From Bacteroidota bacterium (lineage in GTDB: Bacteria > Bacteroidota > Bacteroidia > Palsa-948): a stretch of 36,148 bases of DNA. A program made the translations under genes and the position numbers. How positions within the stretch are numbered: position 1 is the first letter of the stretch; each line of letters opens with the position of its first letter. Location of the stretch: assembly GCA_016195025.1 (NCBI GenBank), contig JACQAL010000020.1, positions 1 through 36,148 on the forward strand. The letters are read 5' to 3'. Below are positions 2,174 to 33,472 of the stretch, piece after piece. The notes below the pieces were generated by a model. That model worked only from the letters and a program-made list of their open reading frames with translations, was not told the DNA's origin and made no database searches.

Positions 2174-4948
2174 ATGGCAAACTTAATCTATCTCATTCCC
2201 GTCTTTGGAATCATCGGTCTCGCGTATATGGCAATCACCGCAATGTGGGTTACCAAACAAGATGCAGGCGACAGCAAAATGGCAGGCATCGCTTCCCACA
2301 TTGCCGAAGGAGCCATGGCATTTCTCAAAGCCGAATACAGAATTCTCGCCATATATGTTTTGCTTGCAGGAACCGGGCTCGGAATTCTTTCGCAGGTAAG
2401 CAAAGTTGCCTCACACTCTCATATATTAATTGTTGCCGCCTTTGTAACCGGATGTTTTTTCTCCGCGCTTGCAGGATTTATCGGAATGAAAATTGCCACC
2501 AAAGCAAATGTGCGCACCACGCAGGCAGCAAGAACTTCTCTCGCAAAAGCATTGAAAGTTTCTTTTGGCGGAGGCACCGTGATGGGATTGGGTGTTGCAG
2601 GGCTTGCAGTTCTCGGATTGAGTTCACTCTTCGCCATCTTCTACACAAAATTCATGAGCGGAAGTTTTGCCAACGGAGGAACGGAAGAAATGATGCGCGT
2701 GCTCGAAGTACTCACCGGGTTTTCCGTAGGCGCGGAAAGCATTGCGCTCTTCGCGCGCGTGGGCGGAGGAATTTATACCAAAGCAGCCGATGTGGGCGCT
2801 GACCTCGTTGGAAAAGTGGAAGCCGGAATTCCCGAAGACGACCCGCGCAACCCCGCCACCATTGCCGATAATGTGGGAGATAATGTGGGTGATGTTGCCG
2901 GAATGGGCGCTGACCTTTTCGGTTCTTACGTTGCAACTGTTCTCGCTTCCATGGTGCTTGGAAATTATATTATCAAAGATAATCCCGGGCTCACAGATAA
3001 TTTCGGAGGAATCGGAGCCATACTTCTTCCCATCACCATTGCCGGAACCGGAATCATTGCATCCATCATCGGAACTTGGTTTGTGAATGTGAAAGACGAT
3101 GGCGAAGCAACAACGGACAAAGTTCAGAAAGCGTTGAATACCGGAAACTGGAGCGCAATCATTCTTGCACTCGTTGCCGCTTTCTTCCTTATTAAGTATA
3201 TGCTGCCTGCTTCCATGCACATGAGCGGCTTCAATCACGACATTACTTCAATGGATGTTTTTTACGCAGTGTGCATCGGCATGACGGTGGGCGCTTTGAT
3301 TTCTCTCATCACGGAATATTACACGGGGCTTGGAAAAAAACCTGTGCTCTCCATCGTGTATAAATCAGCAACAGGCGCGGCAACAAATATTATTGCCGGT
3401 CTCGGAAACGGAATGTTATCTACGGCTTTCCCCGTAATTCTTTTTGCCGGAGCAATCTGGGGCTCCTATCACTTCGCGGGATTTTACGGAGTGGGAATTG
3501 CAGCGGCTTCCATGATGGCGACCACCGGAATGCAATTAGCCATTGATGCTTTCGGACCGATTGCCGACAACGCGGGAGGAATTGCCGAGATGAGCGAACT
3601 TCCCAAAGAAGTGCGCGAAAAAACTGATGTGCTGGATTCAGTAGGCAACACCACTGCCGCCATCGGAAAAGGTTTCGCAATTGCATCAGCCGCTCTCACC
3701 GCGCTCGCGCTCTTTGCCGCGTATGTAAGCATCACCGGCATTCCCGGCATAAATATTTTCAACGCCAAAGTTCTTGCCGCGCTTTTCATAGGCGCTATGA
3801 TTCCCGTTGTGTTTTCTGCGCTTGCCATGAACAGCGTTGGAAAAGCCGCCATGGACATGGTGAATGAAGTAAGAAGACAATTCAGAACCATTCCCGGAAT
3901 TATGGAAGGAACCGGAAAACCGGAATACGGAAGATGCGTGGAGATTTCTACCAAAGCCGCGCTGCGCGAAATGCTCGCACCGGGCGCAATTACAATTATC
4001 ACTCCGCTGATTGTGGGATTAGTGATGGGCGCGGAAGCATTGGGCGCATATATGGCGGGCGTAACGGTAAGCGGTGTGCTGTGGGCAATCTTTCAGAACA
4101 ATGCCGGTGGCGCGTGGGACAATGCAAAAAAATCTTTCGAGAAAGGAATTGAACTCGAAGTGAACGGGAAGAAAGAAATGTTCTACAAAAAATCCGAGCC
4201 GCATAAAGCAGCGGTTGTCGGAGATACGGTGGGAGACCCGTTCAAAGATACTTCGGGACCTTCGATGAATATTTTAATTAAACTTTCATCGCTGGTGGGA
4301 TTAACCATTGCTCCGCTGATTGCGATTGACCATCCGCTTGCAAATGTTGTGGGAACTTCTGCGGAAAAAATTATCGCCACCGCCAATGCAATGACCTACG
4401 CGGATATTAAAACGCTGAGCGGAACATATCAAATGGATGACTCGCATAGTTTCGTGGAATTTTCCCTTTCACATTTCCTCACCACCGCGAAAGGAAACAT
4501 TGCACTCGATACCAATTATGAAAATAAATTAGTGATGACCGGTGATGTGGCAACTTCATCGGTTGACCTCGCGTTGAGTACAAATTCAATCAACACGATG
4601 AACACCGACCGCGATGAGCATTTGAAGAGCGAAGATTATTTTGATGCGAAAAAATTTCCAACGATTAAATTTGTTTCAACCTCTGTAAAAGAAAACAAGG
4701 AAGGATTTTATCATTACACCGCCATTGGCAATCTCACTATTAAAGGCGCGACTAAACCTGTGGAAATTCCTTTCAACTATCTGGGCGAGTACAAGCCGAA
4801 GTCCAAAGACGGAAAAACACGTCCGAGCATTTACACCTTTGACGGTGAATTTAAAATCAACCGCGTGGATTTTGGCGTGGGTGAAAAGAGTGTTGCGTTG
4901 GGCGAAGAGGTGACTATTTCTTTTTCGATTGAGACGAGGAAGAAGTAA
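2174..4948 (+). CDS. hppA: Membrane-bound pyrophosphatase fused to a C-terminal YceI-like domain
   Basis: The protein hydrolyses pyrophosphate and pumps H+ or Na+ out of the cytoplasm. Residues 1 to about 740 are a complete M-PPase (family length roughly 670-770). They include the substrate motif [11 protein letters not shown] at 206, the following acidic stretch [38 protein letters not shown] at 491 and [15 protein letters not shown]. Ala and Gly at the two diagnostic positions of [10 protein letters not shown] indicate the K+-dependent subfamily. Residues about 748-924 are a YceI-like domain: it starts [12 protein letters not shown] and contains [18 protein letters not shown] and [16 protein letters not shown]. 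YceI proteins are periplasmic lipocalin-like folds that bind polyisoprenoids. M-PPases have 16 membrane helices with both ends outside, so the added domain would face the periplasm. There is one uninterrupted frame. The ion pumped cannot be told from sequence. Confidence 0.95.
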
Positions 4949-5675: not shown

Positions 5676-8600
5676 CTACCTGCTAAGAATAATTTTCATG
5701 GTTCCGGTTCCATGTGCGGTTTTAATTCTCAGGAAATAAATTCCGTCTGCCCGGGCGGAAATATTTACTGTGAGATTATTTAACTGCTCAAGAGATGAAT
5801 AAACTTTTTCTCCCAGCACATTCGTGATAGTTACTTCTCCATTTGCTTCTTTACTCTGAATCGTAAATATTCCGCTGTTCGGATTTGGATAAACAGTTAT
5901 TCCTTCAAGAGTAAATAACGTTTGAACTCCCGTGCAGAGGTCAACATAGATTTGCATGGAATCGGAATTGGAACATCCGAGCGAATCGGTAAAAGTATAT
6001 GTAATAGTATGCAATCCTCCGCCTGCTGAAGACGGGTCAAAATTTCCTGCACTCACTCCCGTTCCTGAATACGTTCCGCCCGATGGCATTCCACCCGTTA
6101 ATGCATATGGACCAACCGAAATGCAAACCGTATCGGGATTCAGGGAAAGTGAAACAGAAGGAAGCGGATTCACATTTATTGCCTGAGTTGCTGTGCTTGC
6201 GCAGAACTGTGTTCCGGTTACAGTATAAGTTGTACTCGCAGTGGGAGCAACAACAATGCTGGCGGTAGTTTGCCCTGTGGACCAACTATAAGTGGAAGCG
6301 CCTGATGCCGTGAGTGTATCAGCAGTTCCGCTGCAAATAGTTGTATCGCCTGCCATGATTACTACAACAGGAGGAGAAACAACCGTAACGGTTGCCGAAG
6401 CGGATTGAGTGCATCCGATTGCGCTCGTTCCGGTTACTGAATAAACCGTTGTTGAAGATGGCGCATCTGAAATGCTTGCCGTAGTTTGCCCGCCTGACCA
6501 ACTATAGGTGGAAACGCCCGATGCGGTGAGCGTAATAGTTCCGCCCGTGCAAATAGTCGTTGACGGACTCACGCTCACATTCACAGTCGGAGAAGAAACA
6601 ACAACTGCTTTTGTAGTTGTCTTCGTGCAGCCGGAAGAATTTGTTCCGGTAACTGTATACGTAGTATTTGCGGTTGGGCTATCAACAATACTTGCTGTGG
6701 TTGCGCCAGTGCTCCAACTATAACTTGCCGCGCCCGATGCCGTGAGCGTAATAGTTGTTCCGCTGCAGATAGTAGCGGAAGGGCTTGCGCTCACTGTAAC
6801 ATTCAATGTTGAAACAGTAATCAATTGCGTTGCCTTCGCAGAACATCCGCTTGCGCTCGTTCCGGTTACGGTGTAAGTTGTATTCGATGCAGGACTAACC
6901 GTTATGCTCGAAGTAGTTTGTCCTGAAGACCAAAGATACGTATTCGCTCCCGATGCCGTGAGCGTAACGCTTCCTCCGCTGCAAATGGTGGAAGAAGGAC
7001 TTACGGTAATTACAGTCGAAGGCAACGGGTTCACAGTAATTGCCTGCGTATTTGTGCTCGCGCATCCATTTGAACCCGTAAGAGTATAGGTAGTGCTTGT
7101 TGTCGGGCTCGCAGTAACAGAAGAAGTGGTTTGCCCTCCGGGCGACCAACTATACGTCATTGCTCCCGATGCAGCAAGTGTAACACTGCTTCCGCTGCAA
7201 ATAGTAGCAGACGGAGTAACCGTTATGGTAGTGGAAGGCGCGGTTGTAACAGAAATTGTTTGCATAGAAGTTTTTGTACATCCGGTCGCGCTTGTTCCGG
7301 TTACAGTATACGTAGTGGTTGCCGAAACAACATCCGTTATGCTTGCGGTGGTTTGACCGCCTGACCAACTATACGTGGAAGCGCCCGATGCAGTAAGCGT
7401 AATTGCATCTCCGATGCATACCGTTGATGAAGGGCTCGCGCTTATATTCACAGTAACGGATGAAACGGTAATCGTTCGCGTTGCAGTTTTACTGCAGCCA
7501 ATCGCATTGGTTCCTGTTACTGTATAGGTAGTATTGCTTGTCGGACTCGTCACAATGCTTGCAGTTGTCGCGCCTGTGTTCCAACTATAGGTTGAGCCGC
7601 CCGAAGCCGTAAGCGTTACGTTGCTTCCGTTGCATATCGTAGCAGAAGGAGAAACACTTATAGTTACATTCGGATTTGAAACCACAAGTGTTTTGGTAGA
7701 CGACTTTGTACAGCCGCTTGCATTTGTTCCTATAACTGTGTAAGTAGTATTCACAGTGGGGCTCACCGTAATGCTTGTAGTGGTTTGTCCGCCATTCCAT
7801 ACATATGTATTCGCACCTGATGCCGTGAGCGTAGCGCTGCTTCCTATACATATAGTAGCAGAAGGCGAAGCCGTAATGGTTGTTGTGGGAAGTGCATTCA
7901 CCATTATCGCCTGCGTTGTGGTGGTAGCGCATCCGTTGGAAGCCGTGAGCGTATAAGTAGTATTAGTTGTTGGATTCACAGTAATGTTCGCAGTGGTTTG
8001 TCCTCCGGGCGACCAACTATAAGTGGATGCACCCGATGCAGTAAGCGTAACGCTGCTTCCGCTGCAAATGGTTGCAGAGGGCGTAACAGTTATAGTCGGT
8101 GAAGGAGCAGGATTAACAGTGATAACCTGAGTCGCAGAATTTGTACAACCGTTTCCATTCGTTCCGAATACACTATAGGTGGTTGTGGAAGGAACAACAT
8201 CAGTTATGGTTGAAGTGGTTTGTCCGCCTGGCGACCAACTATATACTGATGCGCCCGAAGCGGTAAGCGTAATTGCATCTCCGCTGCAAACCGTTGCCGA
8301 AGGACTTGTACTGATAGTAACAGTTGCCGATGAAATAGTAATCAATTGAGAAGTGGTGGAAGTACAACCACCTGCACTTGTTCCGGTCACCGAATAAGTA
8401 GTATTTGCAGTTGGGCTTACAGCAATACTTGCACCCGTTTGTCCTGTTGACCATGCATAAGTGGACGCGCCCGATGCAGTAAGCGTTGCGCTGGTACCGT
8501 TGCAAATTGTTGCAGAAGGGCTTGTACTTATGGTAACAGTCGGAGAAGTAACAGTAATTGCTTTCGTGGCAGTTTTCGTACAGCCGTTTGCGCCTGTTCC

Positions 8601-11600
8601 GGTAACGGTATAAGTAGTATTTACAGTTGGACCAACAATGATGCTCGTAGTGGTTTGTCCCGAAGACCATAAATAAGAAGAAGCACCAGAGGCAGTAAGC
8701 GTTGCACTCGCGCCTTTACAAATAGTAGTGGATGGAGCAGCTGTAATAGTTGTGGTCGGCAAAGGATTTACCGTAATGATTTGCGTTTGGCTGCTGCTGC
8801 ATCCCAAACTTGTTCCCGTCACTGTATAAGTAGTGGTGGTAGTAGGCGCCACAGTTTTACCCGCAGTGGTTTGTCCTCCGGGAGCCCAACTATACGTGGT
8901 AGCGCCCGATGCAGTCATCGTTACACTTGTTCCGCTGCAAATAGTTGCGGAAGGATTTACCGCAACGCTCACGGAAGGAATGGCGTTCACCGTAATGTAA
9001 TTCAATTTTGTTTTTGTATTGCTTCCGCTCATGTTAGTAGCAGTAAGCGAAACAGAATAAGTGCCCGCAGTATTATAAGTAACTACAGGATTCTGTAAAG
9101 TAGAAGTTGCCGGTGTTCCTCCCTGAAAAACCCACGACCAGGAAGTAGGGCTGTTCGTGCTTGCATCCGTAAATGTAACATTGCTTCCCGCACAAATAGT
9201 TGTTGGGCTGCCATTAAAATCAGCAACAGGAACAGTGCATGAATTGGTGACGGTGATAGTTCCGGTTTTCACACAGCCATTACCATCGGTAACCGTGCAG
9301 GAATAATTTCCGGCAGCAAGACCTGTTGCCGTTTGTGTGTTTTGTCCTCCGGGATTCCATGAATAAGTATAAGGAACGCTTCCGGTGGGAGTAGCCGTTG
9401 CCGTTCCGTCATTTCCCGCGCATGTTTCGCTGGTCATGCTCATGGAAACAGAGAGCGAATTAACCGTAATTGATTTCGTGGAAGTGTTCGTGCATCCGCT
9501 TGCATTGGTTCCGGTAACTGTGTAAGTAGTATTTGTTGTCGGGCTCACCGTGATGCTTACAGTTGTTTGTCCTGTTGACCAACTATATGTGGAAGCACCC
9601 GATGCAGTAAGTGTGGCATTGCTTCCGCTGCAAATGGTGGCAGATGGAGTAACGCTGATGCTCACAGTTGGAAGCGCGTTCACTGTTACTGCTTTCGTTG
9701 CCGTGTTTGTACAGCCGAGTGCATTTGTTCCTGTAACAGTATAAGTAGTGTTGGAAGTCGGACTCACAGTAATTGCCGCAGTAGTTGCGCCCGTATTCCA
9801 ACTATATGTTGAAGCCCCCGATGCAGTAAGCGTGGTGCTGTTGCCTATGCAAATTGTTGCCGATGGGCTTGCTGCAATGCTCACGGCAGGAGAAGAAACA
9901 GTAATCAGCCGCGTAGCAGATGCAGTGCATCCAATCGCATTTGTTCCAATAACTGTATAGGTTGTATTAACTGTTGGGCTCACCGCAATGCTCGCAGTAG
10001 TTTGCCCTCCAGGTGACCAACTATAAGTGGATGCGCCCGATGCAGTAATTGTTGCGCTGTTTCCCAAACAAATGGTAGAAGAAGGGCTCACGCTGGTTGT
10101 TACCGTAGGAGTAGAAACAGTTATTGCCTGCGTGGCAATAGCAGTACATCCGCTCGCATTGGTTCCGGTAACCGTATACGTTGTATTGGAAGTGGGAGCA
10201 ACCGTAATGCTCGTTGTAGTTTGCCCCGATGACCATAAATAAGTGTTCGCTCCCGATGCGGTAAGAGTAACATTGTTTCCACTGCAAATAGTTGCAGATG
10301 GAGCCGTGGAAATTGAAACAGAAGGAAGAGCGTTTACAGTAATGTAACTCAATTTGGTTTTTGTATCGCTTCCGCTTGCGTTGGTTGCAGTGAGTGTGAC
10401 AAAATAAGTTCCCGCTGTGTTATAAGTTACAACCGGATTCTGCAAAGTTGATGTGGCAGGCGTTCCTCCATTGAAAGTCCAACTCCACGAAGTAGGTGCA
10501 TTGGTAGATTGGTCGGTGAAGGTTACATTCTGTCCAACGCAAATAGTTGTTGGATTGCCGATGAAATCTGCAACGGGCGGTGCAGCATTAAACACGCTGG
10601 AAGAAAATAACCCGCGCCCGTGAGTGGCAACAATTAATTCTTTATCCGAATTTCTCATCTGGAACATATCGCATCGCACATTGGCAAGCCCGGTATTATT
10701 CGGAACATAAGCAGGAGAAGCAGCAGTTACATCGGTGGTTGACCAAACGCCCACTTCAGTAGCGAGAAAAAGTTCTTTCAAATCATTTGGATTATAAATT
10801 GCCCAGCGCACCGGCATGTCAGGAAGATTTCCCGATTCATTTGTCCATGTGCTGCCTCCGTTAGTTGTTCTCCATACATGGCTCACTCCGTAGTTAGAAA
10901 AAGTAACAACCAAATCCAATTCCGATGCGCCAATCTCTACGCAGGATATTGTGCCGGATGGAAACGAGCCGCCTCCAATGCTTGTGGAGGTGGGAGAACC
11001 GCCTTGAGCATTGGTAACTTTGTATAATCTTCCGTTTTGTGTTCCCACAAATAACGTGGTTGTTCCTGCGGGAGCATAAGGCGAAACGCGGATGCATCCG
11101 GCAAGGGCTGACATTCCTGTAATGGTAATTTGTGTTTGCGAAGGCACGCCTCTTATTCCTGATGTGCGCTTGAGTTGAGTGGTGGAATAAGAAGAATAAA
11201 GAATTCCATTTGCATCATCGTAATCGGCAGGGTTAATAAAATCTCCGCTGCTCTGGTCGTTGATAATGTTTGAAAAACTTGCTCCACCGTTTGTAGAGCG
11301 GTAATAAACATTGTATACATACGCAGTAATCTGATAACTTGGGTTTGTCTGGTCAATGAAACAATAAGCGCCATCGCCACCGGTGGCTGAAGTGGTGGCA
11401 TTCATTCCCGCAGTGGTGAATTTCTGAGTGCCGTTATCCTGCGCTCCGGCAAGAAAATAATTTTGTGCGGCAGTGGGATGAATGGCGCAGGCGTAAAACT
11501 GAGTTACGTTATAGCCGGTATTCTTGTTGCTGAAAGCAGGAGTTCCCGCATTCACATTCGAAGAATAATAAAAGCCACCGTCATTTCCGAAAACAGCAGT

Positions 11601-12947
11601 GGAAGAAGAACCGGGAGAATAAACAATGGCGTGCTGGTCGGCATGAACATTCGGGCGCGCACATCCGCCCCACCAACTGGTAATCTGAGTCCATGAACTT
11701 CCGGCATTGGTTGTTTTCATAATATCCACGCCTCCGGCTAAAACATTATTTTCATTGTTCGGGTCAACCGCCAGAATTAAATCATACCATGCCTGCGTGC
11801 GTGTCATGTCTGTAGAAGGGCTGACGCAACTCTGGTCATACCACGAAGGCAGCGTAACGGCTGACCATGTGGTTCCTTTGTTGGTAGTGGTGTAAATATT
11901 CAGCAGCGTATAATTGGTATTGCATACCATTGCATAAACGCGGTTGGCATTGCTGGGAGCGCAGGCAAGTTCAATGTTGTAAAAACCGGATGTAGGAAAT
12001 CCGTTTCCGCCTGTATTTAATTTTGTCCATGAGCCAGCGGCACCCGTAGCGGAGGAATAAACTCCATCGGTGGTAAAAATTCCCATGGAAGCGAAAATAG
12101 TTCCATCGGCTGCTATTTCCAAATCGGCAGCGCGGTTGGTAGAAGCGCCTGTTCCGCTTCCGAGCACTTTTGTCCAGGTGGTTCCTCCATCGGTGGAACG
12201 GTAAACACCATTAGTGCGTGTGGCAGCAAAAACATTTCCGTTAGAAGCCACCACAATTTTCTGAACATAATAAAAATTGGAATTGTTGGTGGAAGCAAGT
12301 TGATTCCAGGTGGCTCCTCCATCGGTGGTTTTCCAGATTCCTGCTCCCTGAATGGCATCAATGTTAAACCATCCTTCGCCTGTGCCTACGTAAAAATTAT
12401 TGGTGTTGGACGGGTCATAGGCAATGCTGGCAACCGCCAGGTTCGCCCAGAAATCATTCACGCTTGTCCAAACGGGAGATGCCACCGTAATGTCGTTTGT
12501 AAACCACAGCCCGCCTCCTACTCCTCCTGCCCACATTTTTTTATTTGTAACATCGTTGGGGTCGAACATGATGGCGCGGGTTCTTCCTCCCACGTTGCTC
12601 GGTCCGCGTTCGGTCCACGAAGCGGTGGTCATGGGAGTTATTTTCTTCTGCGCTTTGTATTGGTTAATCAAATTATACACATTTGCCAAACGCTCGCGCG
12701 GCACATAACCGAGCGCAGGGTCTTTGGTGCGTGCGATGTCCTGCGCAATGGCAAGGTCGGGGCGGTCGGGATTTAATTCCCCGGCATCGGCATCAAAGTT
12801 TTCAGAAGCAATTTCTTTTGCTTCGTTCAAAATTATTTTTCCGCTATGGGAGAAAATAAAAAAGCCGCCAACAAGTGAAAGGGCGGCTGCACCAAGGGTG
12901 AATTTGCTTGTGGTGGCGATAAGAAATTTTGTAAAGATTTTTTTCAT
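5676..12947 (-). CDS. Giant T9SS adhesin: propeller, PKD and 17 Ig-like modules
   Basis: The 2423-residue protein should be secreted by Sec and T9SS and displayed or released. An N-terminal hydrophobic segment (residues about 14-33) is followed by a propeller region to about residue 785. That region has repeated BNR/sortilin-type motifs such as WKTTDGGATWNQL, YRSTDGGTTWTKV and WRTTNGGSTWTNE. Then come PKD domain 1 (about 790-871), Ig-like modules 1-4 (872-1162), one SprB-like module (starts ETCAGNDGTATATPTG), PKD domain 2, and Ig-like modules 5-17 (1321-2259). Each module is 70-73 residues with one Cys in TIC or TVC and one near the end (usually GC), probably a disulfide pair. A further Gly-rich domain and the sorting domain (VYPNPNSG, then GIYFLRIKTAHG) end the protein. 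Adhesion is inferred from architecture; the ligand is unknown. Confidence 0.93.
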   Translation of the reverse strand: MKKIFTKFLIATTSKFTLGAAALSLVGGFFIFSHSGKIILNEAKEIASENFDADAGELNPDRPDLAIAQDIARTKDPALGYVPRERLANVYNLINQYKAQKKITPMTTASWTERGPSNVGGRTRAIMFDPNDVTNKKMWAGGVGGGLWFTNDITVASPVWTSVNDFWANLAVASIAYDPSNTNNFYVGTGEGWFNIDAIQGAGIWKTTDGGATWNQLASTNNSNFYYVQKIVVASNGNVFAATRTNGVYRSTDGGTTWTKVLGSGTGASTNRAADLEIAADGTIFASMGIFTTDGVYSSATGAAGSWTKLNTGGNGFPTSGFYNIELACAPSNANRVYAMVCNTNYTLLNIYTTTNKGTTWSAVTLPSWYDQSCVSPSTDMTRTQAWYDLILAVDPNNENNVLAGGVDIMKTTNAGSSWTQITSWWGGCARPNVHADQHAIVYSPGSSSTAVFGNDGGFYYSSNVNAGTPAFSNKNTGYNVTQFYACAIHPTAAQNYFLAGAQDNGTQKFTTAGMNATTSATGGDGAYCFIDQTNPSYQITAYVYNVYYRSTNGGASFSNIINDQSSGDFINPADYDDANGILYSSYSTTQLKRTSGIRGVPSQTQITITGMSALAGCIRVSPYAPAGTTTLFVGTQNGRLYKVTNAQGGSPTSTSIGGGSFPSGTISCVEIGASELDLVVTFSNYGVSHVWRTTNGGSTWTNESGNLPDMPVRWAIYNPNDLKELFLATEVGVWSTTDVTAASPAYVPNNTGLANVRCDMFQMRNSDKELIVATHGRGLFSSSVFNAAPPVADFIGNPTTICVGQNVTFTDQSTNAPTSWSWTFNGGTPATSTLQNPVVTYNTAGTYFVTLTATNASGSDTKTKLSYITVNALPSVSISTAPSATICSGNNVTLTASGANTYLWSSGQTTTSITVAPTSNTTYTVTGTNASGCTAIATQAITVSTPTVTTSVSPSSTICLGNSATITASGASTYSWSPGGQTTASIAVSPTVNTTYTVIGTNAIGCTASATRLITVSSPAVSIAASPSATICIGNSTTLTASGASTYSWNTGATTAAITVSPTSNTTYTVTGTNALGCTNTATKAVTVNALPTVSISVTPSATICSGSNATLTASGASTYSWSTGQTTVSITVSPTTNTTYTVTGTNASGCTNTSTKSITVNSLSVSMSMTSETCAGNDGTATATPTGSVPYTYSWNPGGQNTQTATGLAAGNYSCTVTDGNGCVKTGTITVTNSCTVPVADFNGSPTTICAGSNVTFTDASTNSPTSWSWVFQGGTPATSTLQNPVVTYNTAGTYSVSLTATNMSGSNTKTKLNYITVNAIPSVSVAVNPSATICSGTSVTMTASGATTYSWAPGGQTTAGKTVAPTTTTTYTVTGTSLGCSSSQTQIITVNPLPTTTITAAPSTTICKGASATLTASGASSYLWSSGQTTTSIIVGPTVNTTYTVTGTGANGCTKTATKAITVTSPTVTISTSPSATICNGTSATLTASGASTYAWSTGQTGASIAVSPTANTTYSVTGTSAGGCTSTTSQLITISSATVTISTSPSATVCSGDAITLTASGASVYSWSPGGQTTSTITDVVPSTTTYSVFGTNGNGCTNSATQVITVNPAPSPTITVTPSATICSGSSVTLTASGASTYSWSPGGQTTANITVNPTTNTTYTLTASNGCATTTTQAIMVNALPTTTITASPSATICIGSSATLTASGANTYVWNGGQTTTSITVSPTVNTTYTVIGTNASGCTKSSTKTLVVSNPNVTISVSPSATICNGSNVTLTASGGSTYSWNTGATTASIVTSPTSNTTYTVTGTNAIGCSKTATRTITVSSVTVNISASPSSTVCIGDAITLTASGASTYSWSGGQTTASITDVVSATTTYTVTGTSATGCTKTSMQTISVTTAPSTTITVTPSATICSGSSVTLAASGAMTYSWSPGGQTTSSVTASPTTSTTYTLTGSNGCASTNTQAITVNPLPSTVITVSPSSTICSGGSVTLTASGANTYLWSSGQTTSSITVSPASNTTYTVTGTSASGCSAKATQLITVSTLNVTVSASPSATICSGTTITLTASGAASYSWSTGATTASIVDSPTANTTYTVTGTNSSGCTKTTTKAVVVSSPTVNVSVSPSTTICTGGTITLTASGVSTYSWSGGQTTASISDAPSSTTVYSVTGTSAIGCTQSASATVTVVSPPVVVIMAGDTTICSGTADTLTASGASTYSWSTGQTTASIVVAPTASTTYTVTGTQFCASTATQAINVNPLPSVSLSLNPDTVCISVGPYALTGGMPSGGTYSGTGVSAGNFDPSSAGGGLHTITYTFTDSLGCSNSDSMQIYVDLCTGVQTLFTLEGITVYPNPNSGIFTIQSKEANGEVTITNVLGEKVYSSLEQLNNLTVNISARADGIYFLRIKTAHGTGTMKIILSR
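6381..7247 (-). repeat. Adhesin super-repeat 3 (modules 13-16)
   Basis: This is the third four-module unit, 867 bp (289 residues), with modules of 72, 73, 72 and 72 residues. Modules 13, 14, 15 and 16 are most like modules 9, 10, 11 and 12 respectively. Module 17 (6171-6380, 70 residues) begins a fourth unit and is the same type as 5, 9 and 13. Confidence 0.8.
7248..8114 (-). repeat. Adhesin super-repeat 2 (modules 9-12)
   Basis: This is the second four-module unit, 867 bp (289 residues), with modules of 72, 73, 72 and 72 residues. Type A starts NPAPSP and ends TLTASNGC. Type B starts NALPTTTIT. Type C starts SNPNVTIS. Type D has VCIGDAITLTASG. Confidence 0.8.
8115..8987 (-). repeat. Adhesin super-repeat 1 (modules 5-8)
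   Basis: This is the first four-module unit, 873 bp (291 residues), with modules of 73, 73, 72 and 73 residues. Its fourth module has VCSGDAITLTASG and SITDVV-like features shared with module 12. It directly follows PKD domain 2. Confidence 0.8.
9462..10334 (-). repeat. Adhesin Ig-like modules 1-4
   Basis: Four Ig-like modules of 73, 73, 72 and 73 residues (873 bp) follow PKD domain 1. They are the same fold type as modules 5-17 but do not follow the later A-B-C-D order as clearly. The two PKD domains before modules 1 and 5 are themselves near-copies, sharing GGTPATSTLQNPVVTYNTAG. Confidence 0.75.
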
Positions 12948-13388: not shown

Positions 13389-13718
13389 TTATCCTCTTTT
13401 TTTCAGTTCTTTCTTAACTTCTTCTTTTTTCTTCTCCATGGTGGGTTTTGGCTTAGCTTTTCCTTTGTCTTTTGCAGCGGCTTCGGCAGCGGCAATAGAA
13501 TCGGCTTTTGCTTTTTCTTTCATTGCCATTTCAGAGGCAGCAACAGAATCGGCTTTCGCTTTTTCTTTTGCAGCAGCAGCGGCAGCAGCCATTGAATCAG
13601 CCATGTGGATTGAATCCTGCTTGTGCTTTTCTTTTGCTTCGAGTTCGGCTTTGCTTGGTCCGCATGCGTAGAATGCAATCATTCCGCCTGCGAGAACGAG
13701 AGTGAGTAGTTTTTTCAT
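13389..13718 (-). CDS. Small Ala/Lys-rich repeat lipoprotein
   Basis: This is a 109-residue predicted lipoprotein. It has a signal sequence MKKLLTLVLAGGMIAFYAC with the lipid-accepting Cys at residue 19. After the Cys the protein is low complexity, with about three 16-residue repeats of the form ADSxAA followed by Ala-rich sequence and KEKAKA, then a Lys/Glu tail ending KKELKKRG. The pattern suggests a charged helical or coiled segment anchored to a membrane. I do not recognise a named family, and function is unknown. It has its own promoter (13756-13784) and terminator (13341-13371), so it is probably transcribed alone. Confidence 0.8.
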   Translation of the reverse strand: MKKLLTLVLAGGMIAFYACGPSKAELEAKEKHKQDSIHMADSMAAAAAAAKEKAKADSVAASEMAMKEKAKADSIAAAEAAAKDKGKAKPKPTMEKKKEEVKKELKKRG

Positions 13719-13953: not shown

Positions 13954-14682
13954 ATGAAAAAACAATTTATTCTCGGTGCTGCCGTACTGCTTGCAGCAGG
14001 AACAATTTGGATGAGCAGTTGCAAAAAAGAAGATACTACTCCTCCTACCGTTTCTATAAAAGGAAGCGACAACATGACTCTTTCTCTTAACGCGGCTCTT
14101 CCTGCAGACCCGGGAGCAACTGCCAATGATGATAAGGACGGAGATATTTCTGCAAAGGTTTCTTCTGATTGGAGCACTGCAATAAAAAAAGATTTAGCCG
14201 GCACTTATAAAGTAACTTATACGGCTTCTGATGCTGCCGGAAATACCGGGACAGTAACCAGAACTGTATATGTTGCTAATGATGCAGCAGCATGGGCGGG
14301 AACTTATTCTAAAACAAATATTCTTGACTCGGTTTTTGCCGATGCACTTCATACCAGTTTTGTTCAAATTTATTCATGGTCAGGAAATGTAGTTGTTACT
14401 GCAAGCACTACTACTAACAACAAATTAATCTTTGACAGATTCAGCGATTACTCCAATTACTCTTCTTCTCAAATGATTTACGGTACCGTTTCGGGAACAA
14501 GCATTACTGTTCCATCACAAACTGCAAATGGAATAGGGCCTGCTCCCGGCAGCGACCATACTTTTCAGGGAAGCGGCAGTAACGTAGATAATGCTGTCGG
14601 TAATTATAAATTCAAAATAAATTCTTCTGATTTAGATATTGCTTCCAGCACTACTGCTTATGATGCTGTTCATTTTAAATAA
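13954..14682 (+). CDS. Lipoprotein with DUF5011-like Ig domain
   Basis: This is a 242-residue predicted outer-membrane or surface lipoprotein. The signal sequence ends MSSCKKED, with Cys23 as the likely lipidated residue. Residues about 29-108 look like a DUF5011/HYR-type Ig domain: PPTVSIKGSDNMTLSLN, ATANDDKDGDISAKV, then GTYKVTYTASDAAGNTGTVT. The C-terminal half is Ser/Thr-rich and predicted beta by its alternation, without a motif I recognise. It has a clear promoter upstream and a terminator downstream, so it is probably a single-gene unit. In related lipoproteins such domains are structural or binding modules; the ligand here is unknown. Confidence 0.88.
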   Translation: MKKQFILGAAVLLAAGTIWMSSCKKEDTTPPTVSIKGSDNMTLSLNAALPADPGATANDDKDGDISAKVSSDWSTAIKKDLAGTYKVTYTASDAAGNTGTVTRTVYVANDAAAWAGTYSKTNILDSVFADALHTSFVQIYSWSGNVVVTASTTTNNKLIFDRFSDYSNYSSSQMIYGTVSGTSITVPSQTANGIGPAPGSDHTFQGSGSNVDNAVGNYKFKINSSDLDIASSTTAYDAVHFK

Positions 14683-14703
14683 TAGTATATCCTGATTTTT
14701 TAA

Positions 14704-14728
14704 AACCCTCTCCACACCGGAGGGGGTT
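14704..14728 (+). terminator. Rho-independent terminator after the Ig-like lipoprotein gene
   Basis: AACCCTCTCC and GGAGGGGGTT pair at 9 of 10 positions around a 5-base loop, followed by a T tract. It lies 21 bases after the stop codon. Confidence 0.85.
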
Positions 14729-14738
14729 TTTTATTTTA

Positions 14739-14766
14739 TTGCGCCTGAATCAAGTTTGTATCTTTA
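14739..14766 (+). promoter_or_regulatory. Possible promoter of the phosphoglycerol transferase operon
   Basis: TTG at 14739-14741 and TATCTTTA at 14759-14766 (7 of 8 bases of TAnnTTTG) are 17 bases apart. The -7 motif ends only nine bases before the ATG, so the message would be leaderless or nearly so. Confidence 0.4.
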
Positions 14767-14775
14767 TTTCCTGAT

Positions 14776-16695
14776 ATGAAAAAAAGTTTTCAGGAAATCA
14801 AACTGCTTCTCCTCCGCCTTTCCGTTGCGCTTCTCACCTACCCCATTTGCAAAATACTTTTCTTCTTTTTCAATCATAGTTATTTTACAGATGTTTCATT
14901 CGGAGAATTTCTGAAAATTCTTTTTTTCGGATTGCGGTTTGATGTTTCAGCAGTAATTCTGATGAACGTTCCGTTTATTTTACTTCACATCATTCCGTTT
15001 GCTTTCACAAGAAAAAACTGGTGGCAATTAATTTTGAAATTCTTTTTTCTGATTCCCAACTCCATTGCCATTCTCGCCAACTGCATTGATTTGGAATATT
15101 ACAAATACACGCTCAAGCGCACCACCGCAGATTTTTTTTCACTCTTCTCGCTCGGTTCTGATGTAACAATCCTGCTTCTGCAGTATGTAAAAGATTTCTG
15201 GTATGTGGGATTAATCTGGATTGCGCTTACTATTTCTATTTGGTGGCTTTATAATAAAACAAAAAGGAGTTATCAGGTAGAAAATAAATTCAACAGTTCA
15301 AGAATTATTTCATGGATGATTTTTAATTCGGTATTAATTGGAATTTTCATTATCGGCTTCCGCGGAGGATTGCAGCTTCGCCCGATTATGCTGATTACTG
15401 CTTCAGAATATGTTTCAGCAAAAAATATTCCGCTCATTCTTAATACGCCATTTACTATCATCACCACTTTTCAACTGGAAAAAATAGAAGAGAAAAAATA
15501 TTTTCCGGAAGAAGAATTAAAAAAAATCTTCAATCCCAATCATCCAGCCATCCAATCATCCAGCCATCCGGCCATCCAGCCATCCAACATTTTTATCATC
15601 ATTCTCGAAAGTTTTTCAAAGGAATACACCACACTTGGAAAAAGAAAAAGTTACACTCCCTTCCTCGATTCGCTGATGAATGAAAGTTTGGTATTTGATA
15701 ATGCTTTTGCCAACGGAAAAAGGTCTATCGAAGGAATTCCCGCAGTGCTCGCAGGCATTCCCGGGCTGATGAATGAATCTTTTATTACTTCCACTTACTG
15801 CGGAAATCAATTCAACTCGCTTGCAAGCGCGCTGAAAGAAAAAAATTATTCCACCGCATTTTTTCACGGGGGAACAAACGGCACTATGGGTTTTGACGGC
15901 TTCTGCGGTTCGGCTGGTTTCGAAAAATACTTCGGACGATTTGAATACAATAATGACAAAGATTACGATGGCGAATGGGGAATCCGGGACGAAAAGTTTT
16001 TTCAGTTTACCGAAAAGAAAGTTTCGGAAATGAAAGAGCCATTTCTTGCAGCGCTGTTTTCACTTTCTTCTCATCATCCGTATACTATTCCGGAAGAATA
16101 TAAAAATAAATTTACAGGCGGAGAGCATCCGATTTTGAAAAGCGTTCAGTATGCAGATTACTCGCTTAAGAAATTTTTTGAGTCCGCCTCAAAAGAAAAA
16201 TGGTTCGACAGCACGTTATTTGTTATCACTGCCGACCACACCGGACCTTCGTCCGATATTTTTTACAGCAACAGCGCTGGGAGTTTTGAAGTGCCCATTA
16301 TTTTTTACAAACACAACAGCCACTTGAAAGAAAAAAAATCCACCATCGCGCAGCAAATAGATATTATGCCAACGGTTCTAAATTTTTTGAACTATGATAA
16401 ATCTTATTTTGCTTTTGGAAATAATCTTCTTGATACGACCTCGAAAAAGTTTGCAGTGAATTTTATCAACAATGTTTATCAGATTTTTCAGGATGATTAT
16501 TTATTGCAGTTTGACGGAAATAAAACAATCGGATTTTATAATTTTAAAACCGATTCGCTGCTACAAAATAATCTTCATGAGCAAACCTCAAAGGTTTTAA
16601 AAACCTTTGAGGTTTCAATGGAAGAAAAATTAAAAGCAATTATTCAAACATATAATTCAGGAATGATTCATAATAAAATGACGGCCGATAAATGA
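14776..16695 (+). CDS. LTA-synthase-like phosphoglycerol transferase (sulfatase superfamily)
   Basis: This 639-residue membrane protein has about five N-terminal membrane segments (residues 10-225) followed by an external alkaline-phosphatase/sulfatase catalytic domain from 272. LtaS-type enzymes move glycerol phosphate from phosphatidylglycerol to an acceptor and leave diacylglycerol. Likely catalytic and metal residues are Glu278 in IILES, Ser317 in ANGKRSIEG (where LtaS has Thr), and Asp487-His488 in TADHTG; the acceptor may be a glycan or another lipid. A six-copy octamer array encodes residues 256-271, exactly at the junction between membrane and catalytic parts. A 33-bp palindrome encodes part of the C-terminal tail. 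The stop overlaps the start of the next gene by four bases (ATGA), suggesting translational coupling. Confidence 0.88.
   Translation: MKKSFQEIKLLLLRLSVALLTYPICKILFFFFNHSYFTDVSFGEFLKILFFGLRFDVSAVILMNVPFILLHIIPFAFTRKNWWQLILKFFFLIPNSIAILANCIDLEYYKYTLKRTTADFFSLFSLGSDVTILLLQYVKDFWYVGLIWIALTISIWWLYNKTKRSYQVENKFNSSRIISWMIFNSVLIGIFIIGFRGGLQLRPIMLITASEYVSAKNIPLILNTPFTIITTFQLEKIEEKKYFPEEELKKIFNPNHPAIQSSSHPAIQPSNIFIIILESFSKEYTTLGKRKSYTPFLDSLMNESLVFDNAFANGKRSIEGIPAVLAGIPGLMNESFITSTYCGNQFNSLASALKEKNYSTAFFHGGTNGTMGFDGFCGSAGFEKYFGRFEYNNDKDYDGEWGIRDEKFFQFTEKKVSEMKEPFLAALFSLSSHHPYTIPEEYKNKFTGGEHPILKSVQYADYSLKKFFESASKEKWFDSTLFVITADHTGPSSDIFYSNSAGSFEVPIIFYKHNSHLKEKKSTIAQQIDIMPTVLNFLNYDKSYFAFGNNLLDTTSKKFAVNFINNVYQIFQDDYLLQFDGNKTIGFYNFKTDSLLQNNLHEQTSKVLKTFEVSMEEKLKAIIQTYNSGMIHNKMTADK
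15541..15588 (+). repeat. Six tandem octamers CATCCAGC inside the transferase gene
   Basis: The units are CATCCAGC, CATCCAAT, CATCCAGC, CATCCGGC, CATCCAGC and CATCCAAC. The total of 48 bases encodes two 8-residue repeats, HPAIQSSS and HPAIQPSN. Gain or loss of one or two units would shift the frame before the catalytic domain. Confidence 0.95.
16583..16615. repeat. 33-bp perfect palindrome inside the transferase gene
   Basis: AAACCTCAAAGGTTTT and its exact complement flank one central A (16+1+16). It encodes in-frame residues in the segment TSKVLKTFEVS near the protein's C-terminus, about 80 bases before the stop. Confidence 0.92.
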
Positions 16696-26219: not shown

Positions 26220-28343
26220 ATGAGTGACTTACATTATACAAGGAACATAGGAATTGCAGCGCACATTGACGCAGGAAAAACTACTTGCACGGAGCGTATA
26301 CTATATTATACTGGCGTTAACCACAAGATTGGCGAAGTTCACGATGGAGCAGCAACAATGGATTGGATGGTTCAGGAACAGGAGCGCGGAATTACTATTA
26401 CATCTGCGGCTACAACTTGCTTTTGGAATTATCGCAACAATAAATATAAGGTAAACATTATTGATACTCCCGGCCACGTGGATTTCACTGTGGAAGTAAA
26501 CCGGTCCCTCAGAGTTCTTGACGGATTGGTTTTTTTATTTTCCGCAGTGGATGGAGTTGAGCCGCAATCAGAAACTAACTGGCGACTTGCCAATAATTAT
26601 AATGTAACGCGCATTTGTTTTGTAAATAAAATGGATCGCGCAGGCGCTGACTTCCTTAATGTTTGCAAGCAGGTAAAAGAAATGCTCGGAGGGAACGCAG
26701 TTCCGCTTCAACTTCCGCTCGGTGCAGAAGAAAAATTTCGCGGAGTAATTGATTTAATTAACAACCGCGCCATCGAATGGAATGAAGAAGATAAAGGAAT
26801 GACCTTTAAAGTGGTTGACATTCCCGCTGAAATGAAAGACGAAGTTCATCACTGGAGAGAAAAATTGTTGGAATCCGTTTCAGAATTTGACGACCATATA
26901 ATGGAAAAATTCTTCAGCGACCAAAATACAATTACTGAAGAAGAAGTTCTCACCGCGCTGCGCAAAGCAACTATTGCAGGAAAAATTATTCCGATGGTTT
27001 GCGGTTCTGCTTTCAAAAATAAAGGCGTGCAAACAATGCTCGACCTCGTAATGGCAATTATGCCTTCACCGCTCGATAAAGAAAATATTATTGGACATCA
27101 TCCTGATACAGACGAAGTGGTTTCGCGCAAGCCGGATGCGAAAGAACCTTTCACTGCGCTCGCATTTAAAATTGCTACTGACCCGTTCGTTGGTCGTCTC
27201 GCTTTCTTCCGCGCTTATGCCGGAAGATTAGAATCCGGTTCTTATGTTTTGAATACTCGTTCAGGAAAAAAAGAACGCATCTCGAGAATTTTTCAGATGC
27301 ACGCGAACAAGCAAAATCAAATTCCGTTTATCGAAGCGGGAGATATTGGCGCAGCAGTTGGATTCAAAGACATTAAAACAGGCGACACGCTCTGCGATGA
27401 GAATGCACCAATCGTTCTCGAAGCAATGAAATTCCCCGAACCCGTTATCGGTCTCGCCATCGAACCGAAAACACAGGGAGATTTGGATAAACTCGGAACT
27501 TCGCTCGCAAAACTTTCAGAAGAAGACCCGACTTTCCGCGTGAAGACGGATGAAGAATCCGGGCAAACAATCATCAGCGGAATGGGCGAACTCCACCTCG
27601 ATATTATTATGGACCGCTTGAGGCGCGAATTCAAAGTGGAAGTCAATCAAGGCGCGCCACAGGTAAATTATAAAGAAGCAATCACCGGAACTATTGAGCA
27701 TCGCGAAATTCACAAAAAGCAATCGGGCGGACGAGGACAGTTTGCCGATATTGAATTTACCGTTTCTCCTGTTGATGCAGATTTTGAAGTAACAGAAAAA
27801 AATGGCGGACTCCAATTTGAAAATGAAATTACCGGTGGAAATATTCCGAAAGAATTTATTCCTGCCGTTGAAAAGGGATTTCGTGGCGCAATGGTGAACG
27901 GAGTGCTGGCAGGATTCCCGATGCAGACAATGAAAATTACTCTCTCCGATGGTTCTTATCACGATGTGGATTCTGATTCCAACTCATTTGAAATTGTAGC
28001 ACGCACTGCTTTCCGCCAGGCAATTCCAAAAGCAAGTCCGGTTTTACTTGAGCCGATTATGAAAATGGAAGTAATCACACCCGAACAATATATGGGAGAT
28101 GTGGTGGGAGATTTGAATCGCAGAAGAGGAATCATTGAAGGAATGGATAGCAAAGCAGGCGCACAGGTAATCAAAGCAAAAGTTCCGCTCTCGGAATTAT
28201 TCGGATATGTTACGCAGTTGAGAACGCTCACTTCCGGACGCGCAACTGCAAACATGGAGCCGTCACATTACCAGGAAGTGCCGCGCAACTTAGCGGAAGA
28301 AGTAATTGCAAAAGTAAAAGGTAAAAAAGCAGAAAAAGTTTAA
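26220..28343 (+). CDS. fusA: Elongation factor G
   Basis: This 707-residue GTPase drives translocation and, with ribosome recycling factor, splits ribosomes. GTP-binding motifs are intact: AHIDAGKT at 14-21, RGITI at 56-60, DTPGHVDF at 82-89 and NKMD at 136-139. Domains 2-5 follow with usual sequence ([39 protein letters not shown]). It lies between rpsG and rpsJ with no tuf gene, the usual Bacteroidota order. Confidence 0.98.
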
Positions 28344-28356
28344 TCAACCAATAAAT

Positions 28357-28665
28357 ATGAGCCAACAAAGAATCAGAATCAAACTAAAATCCTACGACCA
28401 TCACTTGGTTGATAAGTCGGCAGAAAAAATTGTGAAGACAGCAAAGTCCACAGGCGCTGTCATCAGCGGACCAATTCCTCTTCCTACGAACAAAAGAATT
28501 TATACCGTGCTTCGTTCCCCGCACGTAAATAAAAAAGCAAGAGAACAATTTCAACTTTGCACCTACAAGCGACTGATTGATATTTACAGTACCAGCGCAA
28601 AAACTGTGGATGCGCTCAGCAAACTTGAATTGCCCAGCGGTGTGGAAGTGGAAATTAAAGTGTAA
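28357..28665 (+). CDS. rpsJ: 30S ribosomal protein S10
   Basis: This 102-residue protein belongs to the 30S head and also takes part in antitermination as NusE. Motifs: [20 protein letters not shown] near the start and [20 protein letters not shown] in the middle. It begins 13 bases after fusA, joining the str and S10 clusters. Length is normal. Confidence 0.98.
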
Positions 28666-28675
28666 TAAAAAAAGT

Positions 28676-28749
28676 ACAATGTATAATGTACAAAGTACAA
28701 AGACAAAAATAAAAAGACATAATACTCGATACTTAATACTTGAATTAAA
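28676..28749 (+). repeat. Simple-word spacer between rpsJ and rplC
   Basis: The spacer is built from degenerate words (GTACAA/TGTA repeats, then AATACTCGATACTTAATACT). It has no coding sense and looks like filler repeated from short words. Confidence 0.6.
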
Positions 28750-29370
28750 ATGTCAGGACTACTTGGAAAAAAAATCGGAATGACAAATATGTTTGACGCA
28801 TCGGGAAGATACGTTGCGTGCACTGTCATTGAAGCAGGGCCTTGTGTTGTTACTCAGGTGAAGACAAAAGAGAAAGACGGCTACGATTCTCTTCAACTTG
28901 GCTTTTCTGAAAGAAAAGAAAAACATACTACAAAAGCACAGCAAGGACATTTCAAAAAAGCAAACACAACTTTTAAAAAGAAAGTTGCTGAGTTCAGAGA
29001 TTTTGAAGGCGCACAAAAAGCAGGCGATACCATCACGGTGGAAATTTTCACCGAAGGAGAATTTGTGGATGTGGTAGGAACTTCCAAAGGAAAAGGATTC
29101 CAGGGAGTAGTAAAAAAACATCACTTCAGCGGAGTGGGAGCAGCATCCGGTCACGGACAACACGACCGCCAGCGTTCGCCAGGGTCAATCGGGGCATCCT
29201 CCTTTCCATCACGCGTATTAAAAGGAATGCGCATGGCGGGAAGAATGGGAGACGATCGCGTGAAAGCACGCAACCTGCAAGTGTTACGATTAATAAAAGA
29301 TAAAAATCTTCTGGTAGTGAAAGGTTCAGTGCCCGGAGCAAACGGAAGTTTTGTAATCATTCAAAAATAA
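28750..29370 (+). CDS. rplC: 50S ribosomal protein L3
   Basis: This 206-residue protein lies near the peptidyl-transferase centre. Typical sequence: [18 protein letters not shown] at the start, [19 protein letters not shown] and [18 protein letters not shown] in the central loop, and [19 protein letters not shown]. Length is normal. It starts after a 84-base spacer of simple repeats. Confidence 0.98.
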
Positions 29371-29387
29371 TTAATCATCGAAAACAA

Positions 29388-29405
29388 TCCCGATAGCTAT
29401 CGGGA
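29388..29405. repeat. 18-bp perfect palindrome between rplC and rplD
   Basis: TCCCGATAGCTATCGGGA is fully self-complementary and lies 18 bases after rplC and 24 before rplD. It could form a small hairpin in the polycistronic message. Confidence 0.85.
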
Positions 29406-29428
29406 GTCAAAAAATACGAAATAAGAAA

Positions 29429-30148
29429 ATGAAACTCGAAGTATATAATTCAAAAGGAGAAAAAACATCGCGCAGCGTTACGCTGCCTGCTTCCATTTTT
29501 GGCGCAGAGCCGAATGAACACGCGATTTATCTCGATGTGAAACAGTTTCTCGCCAACCAGCGCCAGGGAACTCACAAAGCAAAACAGCGCAACGAAATTC
29601 ACGGAAGCACACGCAAACTGCACAGGCAGAAAGGAACCGGTGGCTCGCGTAAAGGAGATATCAAGAGTCCTCTCTTCCACGGTGGCGGAAGAATTTTTGG
29701 TCCGCAGGTGAGAGATTATTCTTTCAAACTGAACAAAAAAGTGAAACAACTTGCGCGAATCAGCGCGCTTTCTCATAAAGCAAAAGCAAAAGCAATCACT
29801 GTACTCGAAGATTTTTCTTTTGAAAATCCAAAAACAAAAAATTATGTTGAACTTCTCAGCAACTTGGAAATGTACGGAAACAAAACCCTGCACATAATTC
29901 CCAATAGCGATAAGAATGTGATTCTCTCTGCCAGAAATTTAAGAGAAGCCAAAGTTACTTCGGCAAACTCACTGAACACGTATGATATTGTGAACGCAAA
30001 AAATATTTTGATTTCTGAAAGCTCACTGAAAACAATCGAAAATATTTTGAGCGATGGTTCAGAAGAAACAGCAGCACCAAAAAAAGAAAAAGCTCCAGCG
30101 AAAGCAAAAGTGAAAACAACTACAAAAAAGAAATCTACTAAAGAATAA
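29429..30148 (+). CDS. rplD: 50S ribosomal protein L4
   Basis: This 239-residue protein lines part of the exit tunnel, and in E. coli L4 regulates its own operon. The tunnel loop is recognisable as [31 protein letters not shown] Lys/Ala/Thr tail of about 25 residues ([20 protein letters not shown] onward) extends the normal C-terminus. The next gene begins five bases later. Confidence 0.98.
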
Positions 30149-30153
30149 TTCCA

Positions 30154-30441
30154 ATGAGCATTTATCTCAAACCCATCATCACTGAAAAATTTTCTGCAAT
30201 GGCCAATCAAGGGCGCTATGCTTTTGTGGTTGAAAAAACTGCGAACAAACTCGAAATAAAAAATGCTATTGAGAAAGGATACGGAGTTACAGTTGAATCA
30301 GTGAACACAATTAATTACGGAGGAAAAATAAAAATGAGATATACAAAAACAAAAATAATGTCAGGCATTGTTAAACGCGCGAAGAAAGCAATTGTGACTT
30401 TGAAAAAAGGCGACACAATTGATTTCTACGGAAACATATAA
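30154..30441 (+). CDS. rplW: 50S ribosomal protein L23
   Basis: This 95-residue protein sits at the tunnel exit and docks trigger factor and SRP. Motifs: LKPIITEKFSAMANQGRYAF at the start and ENVNKL-like TANKLEIKNAIEKGYGVTVE in the middle. Length is normal. It is tightly linked to rplD (five bases) but followed by a 103-base spacer before rplB. Confidence 0.97.
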   Translation: MSIYLKPIITEKFSAMANQGRYAFVVEKTANKLEIKNAIEKGYGVTVESVNTINYGGKIKMRYTKTKIMSGIVKRAKKAIVTLKKGDTIDFYGNI

Positions 30442-30442
30442 C

Positions 30443-30541
30443 AGAAATTATAGATTATAGATTATAAATTAAGAATTAAGAATTGAAAACCGAAACAAAA
30501 AAAATAATCTATAATTTATAATTCATAATTTTTAATTTCAA
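30443..30541 (+). repeat. Simple-word inverted spacer between rplW and rplB
   Basis: ATAGATTATA/AATTAAGAATTAAG words on the left are mirrored by ATAATCTATAATTTATAATTC on the right; ATTATAAATT (30461-30470) pairs with AATTTATAAT (30513-30522). A long, weak AT hairpin is possible. Confidence 0.55.
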
Positions 30542-30544
30542 ACA

Positions 30545-31384
30545 ATGGGAGTAAGAAGATTCAGACCGCTCACACCGGGTCAACGGCATAAAGTAGCAAA
30601 CGATAACAGCGACATCACCACGTATGTTCCTGAAAAATCTTTGCTGCGTTCTTCAAAAAGAAGCGGTGGAAGAAACCACACAGGAAAAATGACTATGCGC
30701 TACCTCGGTGGCGGACATAAAAGACGTTTGCGCGTGATTGATTTCAAGCGCGACAAGTTTGATATTCCTGCAACAGTAAAATCTGTTGAATACGATCCGA
30801 TGCGCACAGGACGCATTGCACTTCTCCAATATAAGGATGGAGAAAAAAGATACATCCTCGCTCCGCAGGGAATCCAGGTTGGACAAACTGTTGTATCAGG
30901 AAAAAATGTTGCACCGAATATTGGAAACGCAATGCCTCTTTCAAATGTTCCGCTCGGAACTATCGTTCACAATATTGAATTGAATCCAGGGCAAGGCGGA
31001 AAATTTATTCGCAGCGCGGGCTCTTATGCTCAGCTCACAGCGAAAGAAGGAAAGTTTGTTGTATTGAAAATGCCTTCTGGCGAAACAAGAATGATTCTCT
31101 CTACTTGCATGGGAACCGTTGGCTCTGTTTCAAATGCAGACCACAATCAAGAAGTTCACGGAAAAGCAGGACGCATCCGCTGGTACGGACGCAGGTCGCG
31201 CAACAGACCAGTAGCGATGAACCCGGTTGATCACCCAATGGGAGGCGGTGAAGGACGCGCATCGGGCGGGCATCCACGCTCACGCAACGGGCAATTGGCA
31301 AAAGGATTGAAAACACGTAGCAGAACAAAACGCTCCAACAGATATATAATGGAAAGAAGAACTAAAGGATACGGATCAAAATAA
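30545..31384 (+). CDS. rplB: 50S ribosomal protein L2
   Basis: This 279-residue protein binds 23S rRNA domain IV and helps form the peptidyl-transferase centre. Typical sequence: [20 protein letters not shown], then [19 protein letters not shown]-like [20 protein letters not shown], and the catalytic-core segment [20 protein letters not shown] with its conserved His. Length is normal. Confidence 0.98.
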
Positions 31385-31404
31385 TAATTTATAAAAAGTA
31401 AAAC

Positions 31405-31728: not shown

Positions 31729-31756
31729 AGTATAACGATATAAAAAAAGAAATATC

Positions 31757-32182: not shown

Positions 32183-32216
32183 CTCATTAACTCAATCACT
32201 CAATAACTTTTTTTGA

Positions 32217-32948: not shown

Positions 32949-32952
32949 GAAC

Positions 32953-33013: not shown

Positions 33014-33030
33014 TATAATTTTAAATTGAC

Positions 33031-33450: not shown

Positions 33451-33472
33451 TAATTATTGAATAAAAAAGAAA

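Follow-up and report, generated by a model that had tools for sequence, protein, structure and literature searches.

Block-wise growth of domain repeats is an established process. In the work of Bjorklund, Ekman and Elofsson (2006, PMC1553488), a peak in similarity between domains a set number of positions apart is described as the mark of several domains having been duplicated together, and the duplication unit given there comprises seven domains in nebulin and usually four in the case of fibronectin-3 domains. In the super-repeats of the titin A-band, as presented in PMC10665226, an ordered series of domain types forms the unit and domains at like positions are the more similar ones. The Acinetobacter BAP, as described in PMC4647330, is a giant bacterial surface protein with Ig-like modules of several types, in which one unit of modules, E-F-G, has a copy number of 2 or 4. 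The account of Periscope Proteins in PMC8201768 and PMC9704523 concerns tandem folded-domain stalks that bear a head domain, and highly identical tandem repeats belong to its definition. CHU_C and Por_Secre_tail anchors are reported among the fibrillar-adhesin-like proteins of Bacteroidetes in PMC8286594.

The gene considered here lies in a window of 36,148 nucleotides from a Bacteroidota bacterium, and it resembles each of these systems in part. The lag peak found in its modules is of the same kind as in the cases of PMC1553488, but those are eukaryotic, while here the unit is present in three copies in a bacterial secreted Ig-like stalk. With titin (PMC10665226) it shares the ordered domain types; the titin units, however, are longer, mix Ig and FnIII domains and have thick-filament partners, whereas the unit here consists of four domains of one fold with no partner known. 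The BAP of PMC4647330 belongs to another organism group and another module family, and the Periscope definition of PMC8201768 and PMC9704523 contrasts with the 66-70% DNA identity seen here. The closest solved relative by both sequence and fold is GhpA of Aureispira sp. CCB-QB1 (PDB 9flp and related entries), a chain of 5898 aa with long Ig-like arrays, the comparison covering its Ig-like domains, with 21-26% identity in structural alignment. A literature search on super-repeats in bacterial surface proteins or in this Ig family found nothing on this gene or pattern, and a search by title found no publication on GhpA itself. The case is unusual locally and known in kind; its value is that of a clean bacterial example of block-wise growth in an Ig-like stalk.

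From N to C terminus, the protein consists of a head, a first PKD domain, modules 1-4, a different repeat, a second PKD domain and modules 5-17; a short segment dissimilar to the modules then leads to the type IX sorting tail. The open reading frame contains 17 Ig-like modules of about 72 aa each, of which modules 5-17 span positions 6162-8981, in agreement with the interval 6171-8987 originally proposed for the super-repeat. The features are as follows.

5676..12947, minus strand: open reading frame (2423 aa) for the surface protein, comprising the head, a stalk of PKD and Ig-like domains, and the T9SS tail
10584..12770, minus strand: head (aa 60-788), predicted tandem beta-propellers of the GH74 xyloglucanase fold (phmmer, AF2, Foldseek)
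10329..10583, minus strand: PKD domain 1 (aa 789-873)
9453..10328, minus strand: Ig-like modules 1-4, outside the A-B-C-D register, module 1 being nearest to type B
9237..9452, minus strand: single different repeat between module 4 and PKD domain 2, with 11 bits only against the module profile
8982..9236, minus strand: PKD domain 2 (aa 1238-1322)
8109..8981, minus strand: block 1, modules 5-8 (A-B-C-D), 873 bp, 291 residues
7242..8108, minus strand: block 2, modules 9-12 (A-B-C-D), 867 bp, 289 residues, predicted to form four beta-sandwich domains
6378..7241, minus strand: block 3, modules 13-16 (A-B-C-D), 864 bp, 288 residues
6162..6377, minus strand: module 17, A-like in its short loop and trailing linker only, identity giving no placement
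5895..6161, minus strand: last extracellular segment ahead of the sorting tail, dissimilar to the modules
5688..5894, minus strand: Por_Secre_tail, type IX sorting domain (aa 2352-2420; Pfam and TIGR04183)

The different repeat at 9237..9452, where there is no Pfam match, is presumably of the kind called SprB-like. The modules belong to Ig_7 (PF19081, Ig-like domain, CHU_C associated), for which the whole protein scores 112.7 bits against a Pfam cut-off of 27.3, single modules reaching about 21-24 bits each and falling under the cut-off alone. An NCBIfam match to CPSaseIIsmall in the protein was dismissed, its score being far under the cut-off. The predicted structure of block 2 comprises four beta-sandwich domains (pLDDT 94.7), with uncertain interdomain angles because pTM is 0.69, and among solved structures it is closest to the Ig-like domains of GhpA (Foldseek E 1.2e-15; by VIA, Z 12.8-13.9 and rmsd 7.1-9.7 over 279-281 residues). 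Since the phmmer score of the block against GhpA carries a large composition bias, the structural matches were given more weight.

A Pfam search of the head (aa 60-788) reported no family, and phmmer matched it to 2cn2 (1.5e-8). The AF2 model of the head (pLDDT 88.4, pTM 0.83) predicts tandem propellers with the overall tandem beta-propeller fold of a GH74 xyloglucanase, and in the Foldseek search every one of the 23 best rows is a GH74-type enzyme that degrades xyloglucan (TMq 0.61-0.67, 15-18% identity). At the other end of the protein, the tail is a type A C-terminal sorting domain (Pfam 49.4 bits, cut-off 27; TIGR04183 44.5 bits, cut-off 23), and the SprA translocon is represented in the same genome by two pieces above cut-off, on contigs C21 and C70. 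Because the sorting tail is accompanied by an SprA gene in the genome, export by type IX secretion is likely. The term "adhesin" that has been applied to the protein is an interpretation, the head being predicted as a double beta-propeller like those of GH74 xyloglucanases; the protein may be a rod at the cell surface whose head binds or cuts glycans. The whole is most likely a type IX-secreted surface protein in which a GH74-like double propeller is carried on a stalk that was lengthened long ago.

All 17 modules were cut at a fixed offset from the first conserved Cys and then aligned, and all pairs were compared. In modules 5-17, mean amino-acid identity is 58.4, 58.3 and 58.0% at lags 1, 2 and 3 and 68.6% at lag 4, followed by 60.1, 57.0, 54.9 and 63.9% at lags 5 to 8, so that the elevation at distance four anticipated from the sequence is present in the identity matrix. 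DNA identity behaves in the same way, at 68.9% for lag 4 vs 60.5-61.4% for lags 1-3. The period-4 statistic of modules 5-17 is reached by 0 of 20,000 shuffled module orders, in protein and DNA alike, and when the best of periods 2-6 is chosen in each shuffle the observed value is reached in 1 of 5,000 cases for protein and 0 of 5,000 for DNA. Pairwise similarity thus peaks at a distance of more than one domain, beyond what shuffled orders produce, which is the signature of block-wise expansion. These significant versions of the test count the Ig modules alone; in a variant that counts the PKD and SprB-like units as modules, the period-4 P value of the window is 0.064.

Identity is 68.1% within module types (12 pairs) vs 58.2% between types (54 pairs), the best DNA match lies in phase for 11 of the 12 modules of 5-16 (the exception being module 7, which matches module 9), and ungapped DNA autocorrelation of the array has peaks at 216, 867 and 1737 bp. 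Fifteen alignment columns, a shared deletion among them, are type-specific, with one type uniform there and its residue rare in the other modules; over 5,000 random partitions the mean count was 2.4 and the highest 13. The A-B-C-D super-repeat of modules 5-16 is real, and its three units of 291, 289 and 288 residues have the length of about 290 residues expected from the preliminary description.

The motifs by which the types had been recognized are less dependable than the register itself. NGC, proposed as the ending of type A in full or in a shorter variant, is no marker of that type: it is present in modules 6, 8, 9 and 13, of which 6 and 8 are not A modules, and absent from modules 5 and 17. 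What the A modules have in common is a deletion of 1-2 residues ahead of the Cys at the NGC position together with a PGG insertion, which also occurs outside type A in modules 2 and 8. The type D motif VC(S/I)GDAIT holds in part, with GDAIT found in modules 8 and 12 and missing from the third D module. Module 17 had been taken as the start of a fourth unit, and it does share the short loop of type A, but its identity to A (61.0%) is close to that to C (60.5%), with 55.2% for both B and D, and it does not join type A in the trees, so it is not clearly an A module. The absence of a clear fourth start and the out-of-phase best DNA match of module 7 are both points that weigh against the block-duplication account. 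Modules 1-4 were also considered as another A-B-C-D unit and rejected, since their mean identities to the types are out of order.

If the array arose by duplication of whole blocks, then modules at like positions should form clades. For modules 5-16, the unconstrained nucleotide maximum-likelihood tree has the same likelihood as a tree in which A, B, C and D are each monophyletic, the amino-acid tree forced to this monophyly is only 1.3 lnL worse (AU p 0.39), and a tree that groups neighbouring modules is 80-84 lnL worse and rejected. Like-position modules therefore form clades within modules 5-16, and do so more weakly with all 17 modules, where module 5 stands apart from 9 and 13 and module 7 groups with module 2. 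Support for single nodes is modest because each module is short, at about 72 aa, and rich in T and S. The DNA identity of blocks in register is 69.2% between blocks 1 and 2, 70.0% between 2 and 3 and 66.2% between 1 and 3, vs 59-62% for rotated blocks, and exact 21-mers are shared at lag 4 only. In a toy simulation, which uses random letters and ignores selection and real substitution patterns, the observed period-4 value was reached in 898 of 900 runs with four-module duplication, compared with 0 of 900 for single-module, 2 of 900 for two-module and 0 of 900 for three-module duplication. The observed value of 8.64 is nevertheless lower than the means of 15-20 given by the four-module model, and for this reason the growth of the array was probably mixed or subsequently blurred.

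Duplication of four-module blocks of about 870 bp, as first suggested, is the best explanation of modules 5-16 on the combined evidence of periodicity, trees, 21-mers, type-specific columns and simulation. The three blocks are very probably descendants of a single A-B-C-D ancestor, produced in a T9SS-secreted stalk by old in-frame block duplication. Modules 5-16 would have arisen through two tandem duplications within the stalk, each in frame and about 870 bp long, and these may have been made by recombination between homologous module DNA. The additional modules would lengthen the Ig-like rod and might thereby hold the GH74-like double-propeller head away from the cell, and after such old duplications the copies would have diverged as ordinary separate domains.

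The suggestion that strains may differ in block number can be set against the age of the duplications. For pairs of blocks in register, NG86 dS amounts to 1.15-1.28, which is close to saturation. At fourfold-degenerate codons, identity at lag 4 is 47% vs about 41% (p 0.0085 for modules 5-16 and 0.037 for modules 5-17), but the signal loses its significance if the best period from 2-6 is chosen, since 945 of 5,000 shuffles reach it. The reading under which the array has grown recently and is still unstable, with block number differing between strains as in a length-variable Periscope-type stalk, can draw on the strong difference in stalk length between species (17 modules vs 4 and 2 in the nearest same-genus orthologues), but it is very improbable, because length variation is tied in the accounts of PMC8201768 and PMC9704523 to long, highly identical DNA repeats, and here the block DNA is 66-70% identical, with no exact repeat in the array exceeding 21 bp. 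Because the copies are diverged and the exact repeats short, slippage or homologous recombination should find little to act on, and the array should not readily collapse in assembly. Current growth of the array and strain-level variation in block number are accordingly not supported by the sequence; the duplications are old, and the array is not a fast-changing region. A visible higher-order repeat need not imply length variation today. That the repeats were collapsed or falsely joined in assembly is a reading invited by the draft state of the genome (79 contigs), but it is extremely unlikely, given the shortness of the exact repeats and the single open frame that runs through all modules up to the sorting tail; identical extra blocks merged into one copy might still have escaped notice. 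Growth by single-module duplications, with the period of four arising by chance, predicts that identity drops with distance, as it does in several other arrays of this genome; in modules 5-17 the shuffles, the rejection of the neighbour-grouped tree and the negative period-4 values which the single-module model yields in the toy simulation leave it with next to no credibility.

If a shared task, for example binding or bending at regular intervals, kept every fourth module alike, whether or not duplication was involved, then type-specific residues and loop lengths would recur at fixed positions and module order would be retained despite near-saturated synonymous sites, both of which are seen. 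Common descent is indicated instead by the unconstrained nucleotide tree and by the restriction of shared 21-mers to lag 4, and the pattern is kept in none of the orthologues examined and has no known interaction partner, so position-specific selection is a distinctly unlikely account of the array. It is also unlikely, to a somewhat lesser degree, that the A-B-C-D order itself is functional, with four domains acting as a titin-like structural period of a type IX stalk in a bacterium, kept by selection while the DNA diverged. Were the order functional, it might repeat a site for binding or bending at intervals of four domains, or keep like modules apart as a protection against misfolding between neighbours.

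The comparison of stalks among relatives covered 23 head-matching loci (sets of 9 and 14), of which 4 of the 14 run off their contig and some possibly come from the same organisms. Module matches above 50 bits within the head-bearing open reading frame were found at 2 of the 23, with four modules in genome G005 and two in G004, the rest having none or weak ones. These two are the closest same-genus orthologues, with heads 69% (G005) and 66% (G004) identical to that of the present gene. The G005 orthologue has a PKD domain, four modules, a different repeat and a PKD domain in the same order, and then other domains in place of modules 5-17. Because the orthologue stalks hold only 4 and 2 modules, the 13-module array is either lineage-specific or lost in G005 and G004. 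A search with block 2 in the genus, sampled as 7 genomes with one per species, returned, after itself, blocks 3 and 1 of this gene as the best matches (71 and 69%); the next match, at 54% over the whole block, lies in another gene of the same genome. The head is conserved across many Bacteroidota, and the stalk differs from lineage to lineage.

A survey of arrays, which was not systematic, took in 57 hand-picked loci with 102 open reading frames of at least 500 aa, 52 of them with at least five module hits. Among the 37 arrays with at least eight modules, the window included, period 4 at P <=0.005 occurs in 1, that of the window, and it was not found in the sister arrays of the survey. In several other surveyed arrays identity declines with distance. 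One array of genome G002 (L105) has a period of 5 with P 0.001, which is possibly a second super-repeat or else a chance result among about 180 tests. Four survey rows with P 0.001 at period 6 were dropped, being arrays of 8 modules for which the statistic is undefined.

The two PKD domains had been described as near-copies. They are 82% identical in protein, but their DNA is 72.5% identical, and PKD domain 2 is 81% identical in amino acids to PKD domain 1 of the G005 orthologue, which is as close as it is to its own PKD domain 1; the pair thus consists of old copies.

The head of the surface protein, which was analyzed by alignment, Pfam search and fold comparison, is placed below together with the features upstream of the gene and elsewhere in the window.

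10584-12770, minus strand: head of the surface protein, about 730 aa
13193-13281 and 13459-13589: upstream of the surface-protein gene, short tandem repeats (21/42 bp and 48 bp)
13954-16695, plus strand: small bacterial-surface Ig-like protein and sulfatase, upstream of the same gene
2174-4948, plus strand: ORF of 924 aa, H+-pyrophosphatase with a YceI-like domain
26220-36139, plus strand: EF-G, followed by ribosomal protein genes

The head shares 48-70% identity with 18 aligned relatives, and the Pfam search of the surface protein reported no family over it; its predicted fold is GH74-like. The conserved head is also contained, at 49% identity, in a 5569-aa open frame of another genome (locus L045, contig C69 of G013), where the stalk that accompanies it differs from that of the window protein and is much longer.

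Giant repeat proteins also occur elsewhere in the draft genome of the window (contigs C22, C52, C13 and C41; ORFs of 4831, 4652, 2700 and 2311 aa), and in the arrays measured among these proteins identity mostly drops with distance. A period of five was observed in the 10-module Ig-like array of locus L105 (G002, contig C3), with P 0.001 among about 180 tests, and this array is possibly a second super-repeat.

In the 924-aa ORF, the YceI-like domain lies C-terminal to a complete H+-pyrophosphatase within a single frame. The ribosomal protein genes tested in their region were L3, L4, L2, S3 and L5, and AT skew is strong (about 0.2-0.28) in the window from 28 kb onward.
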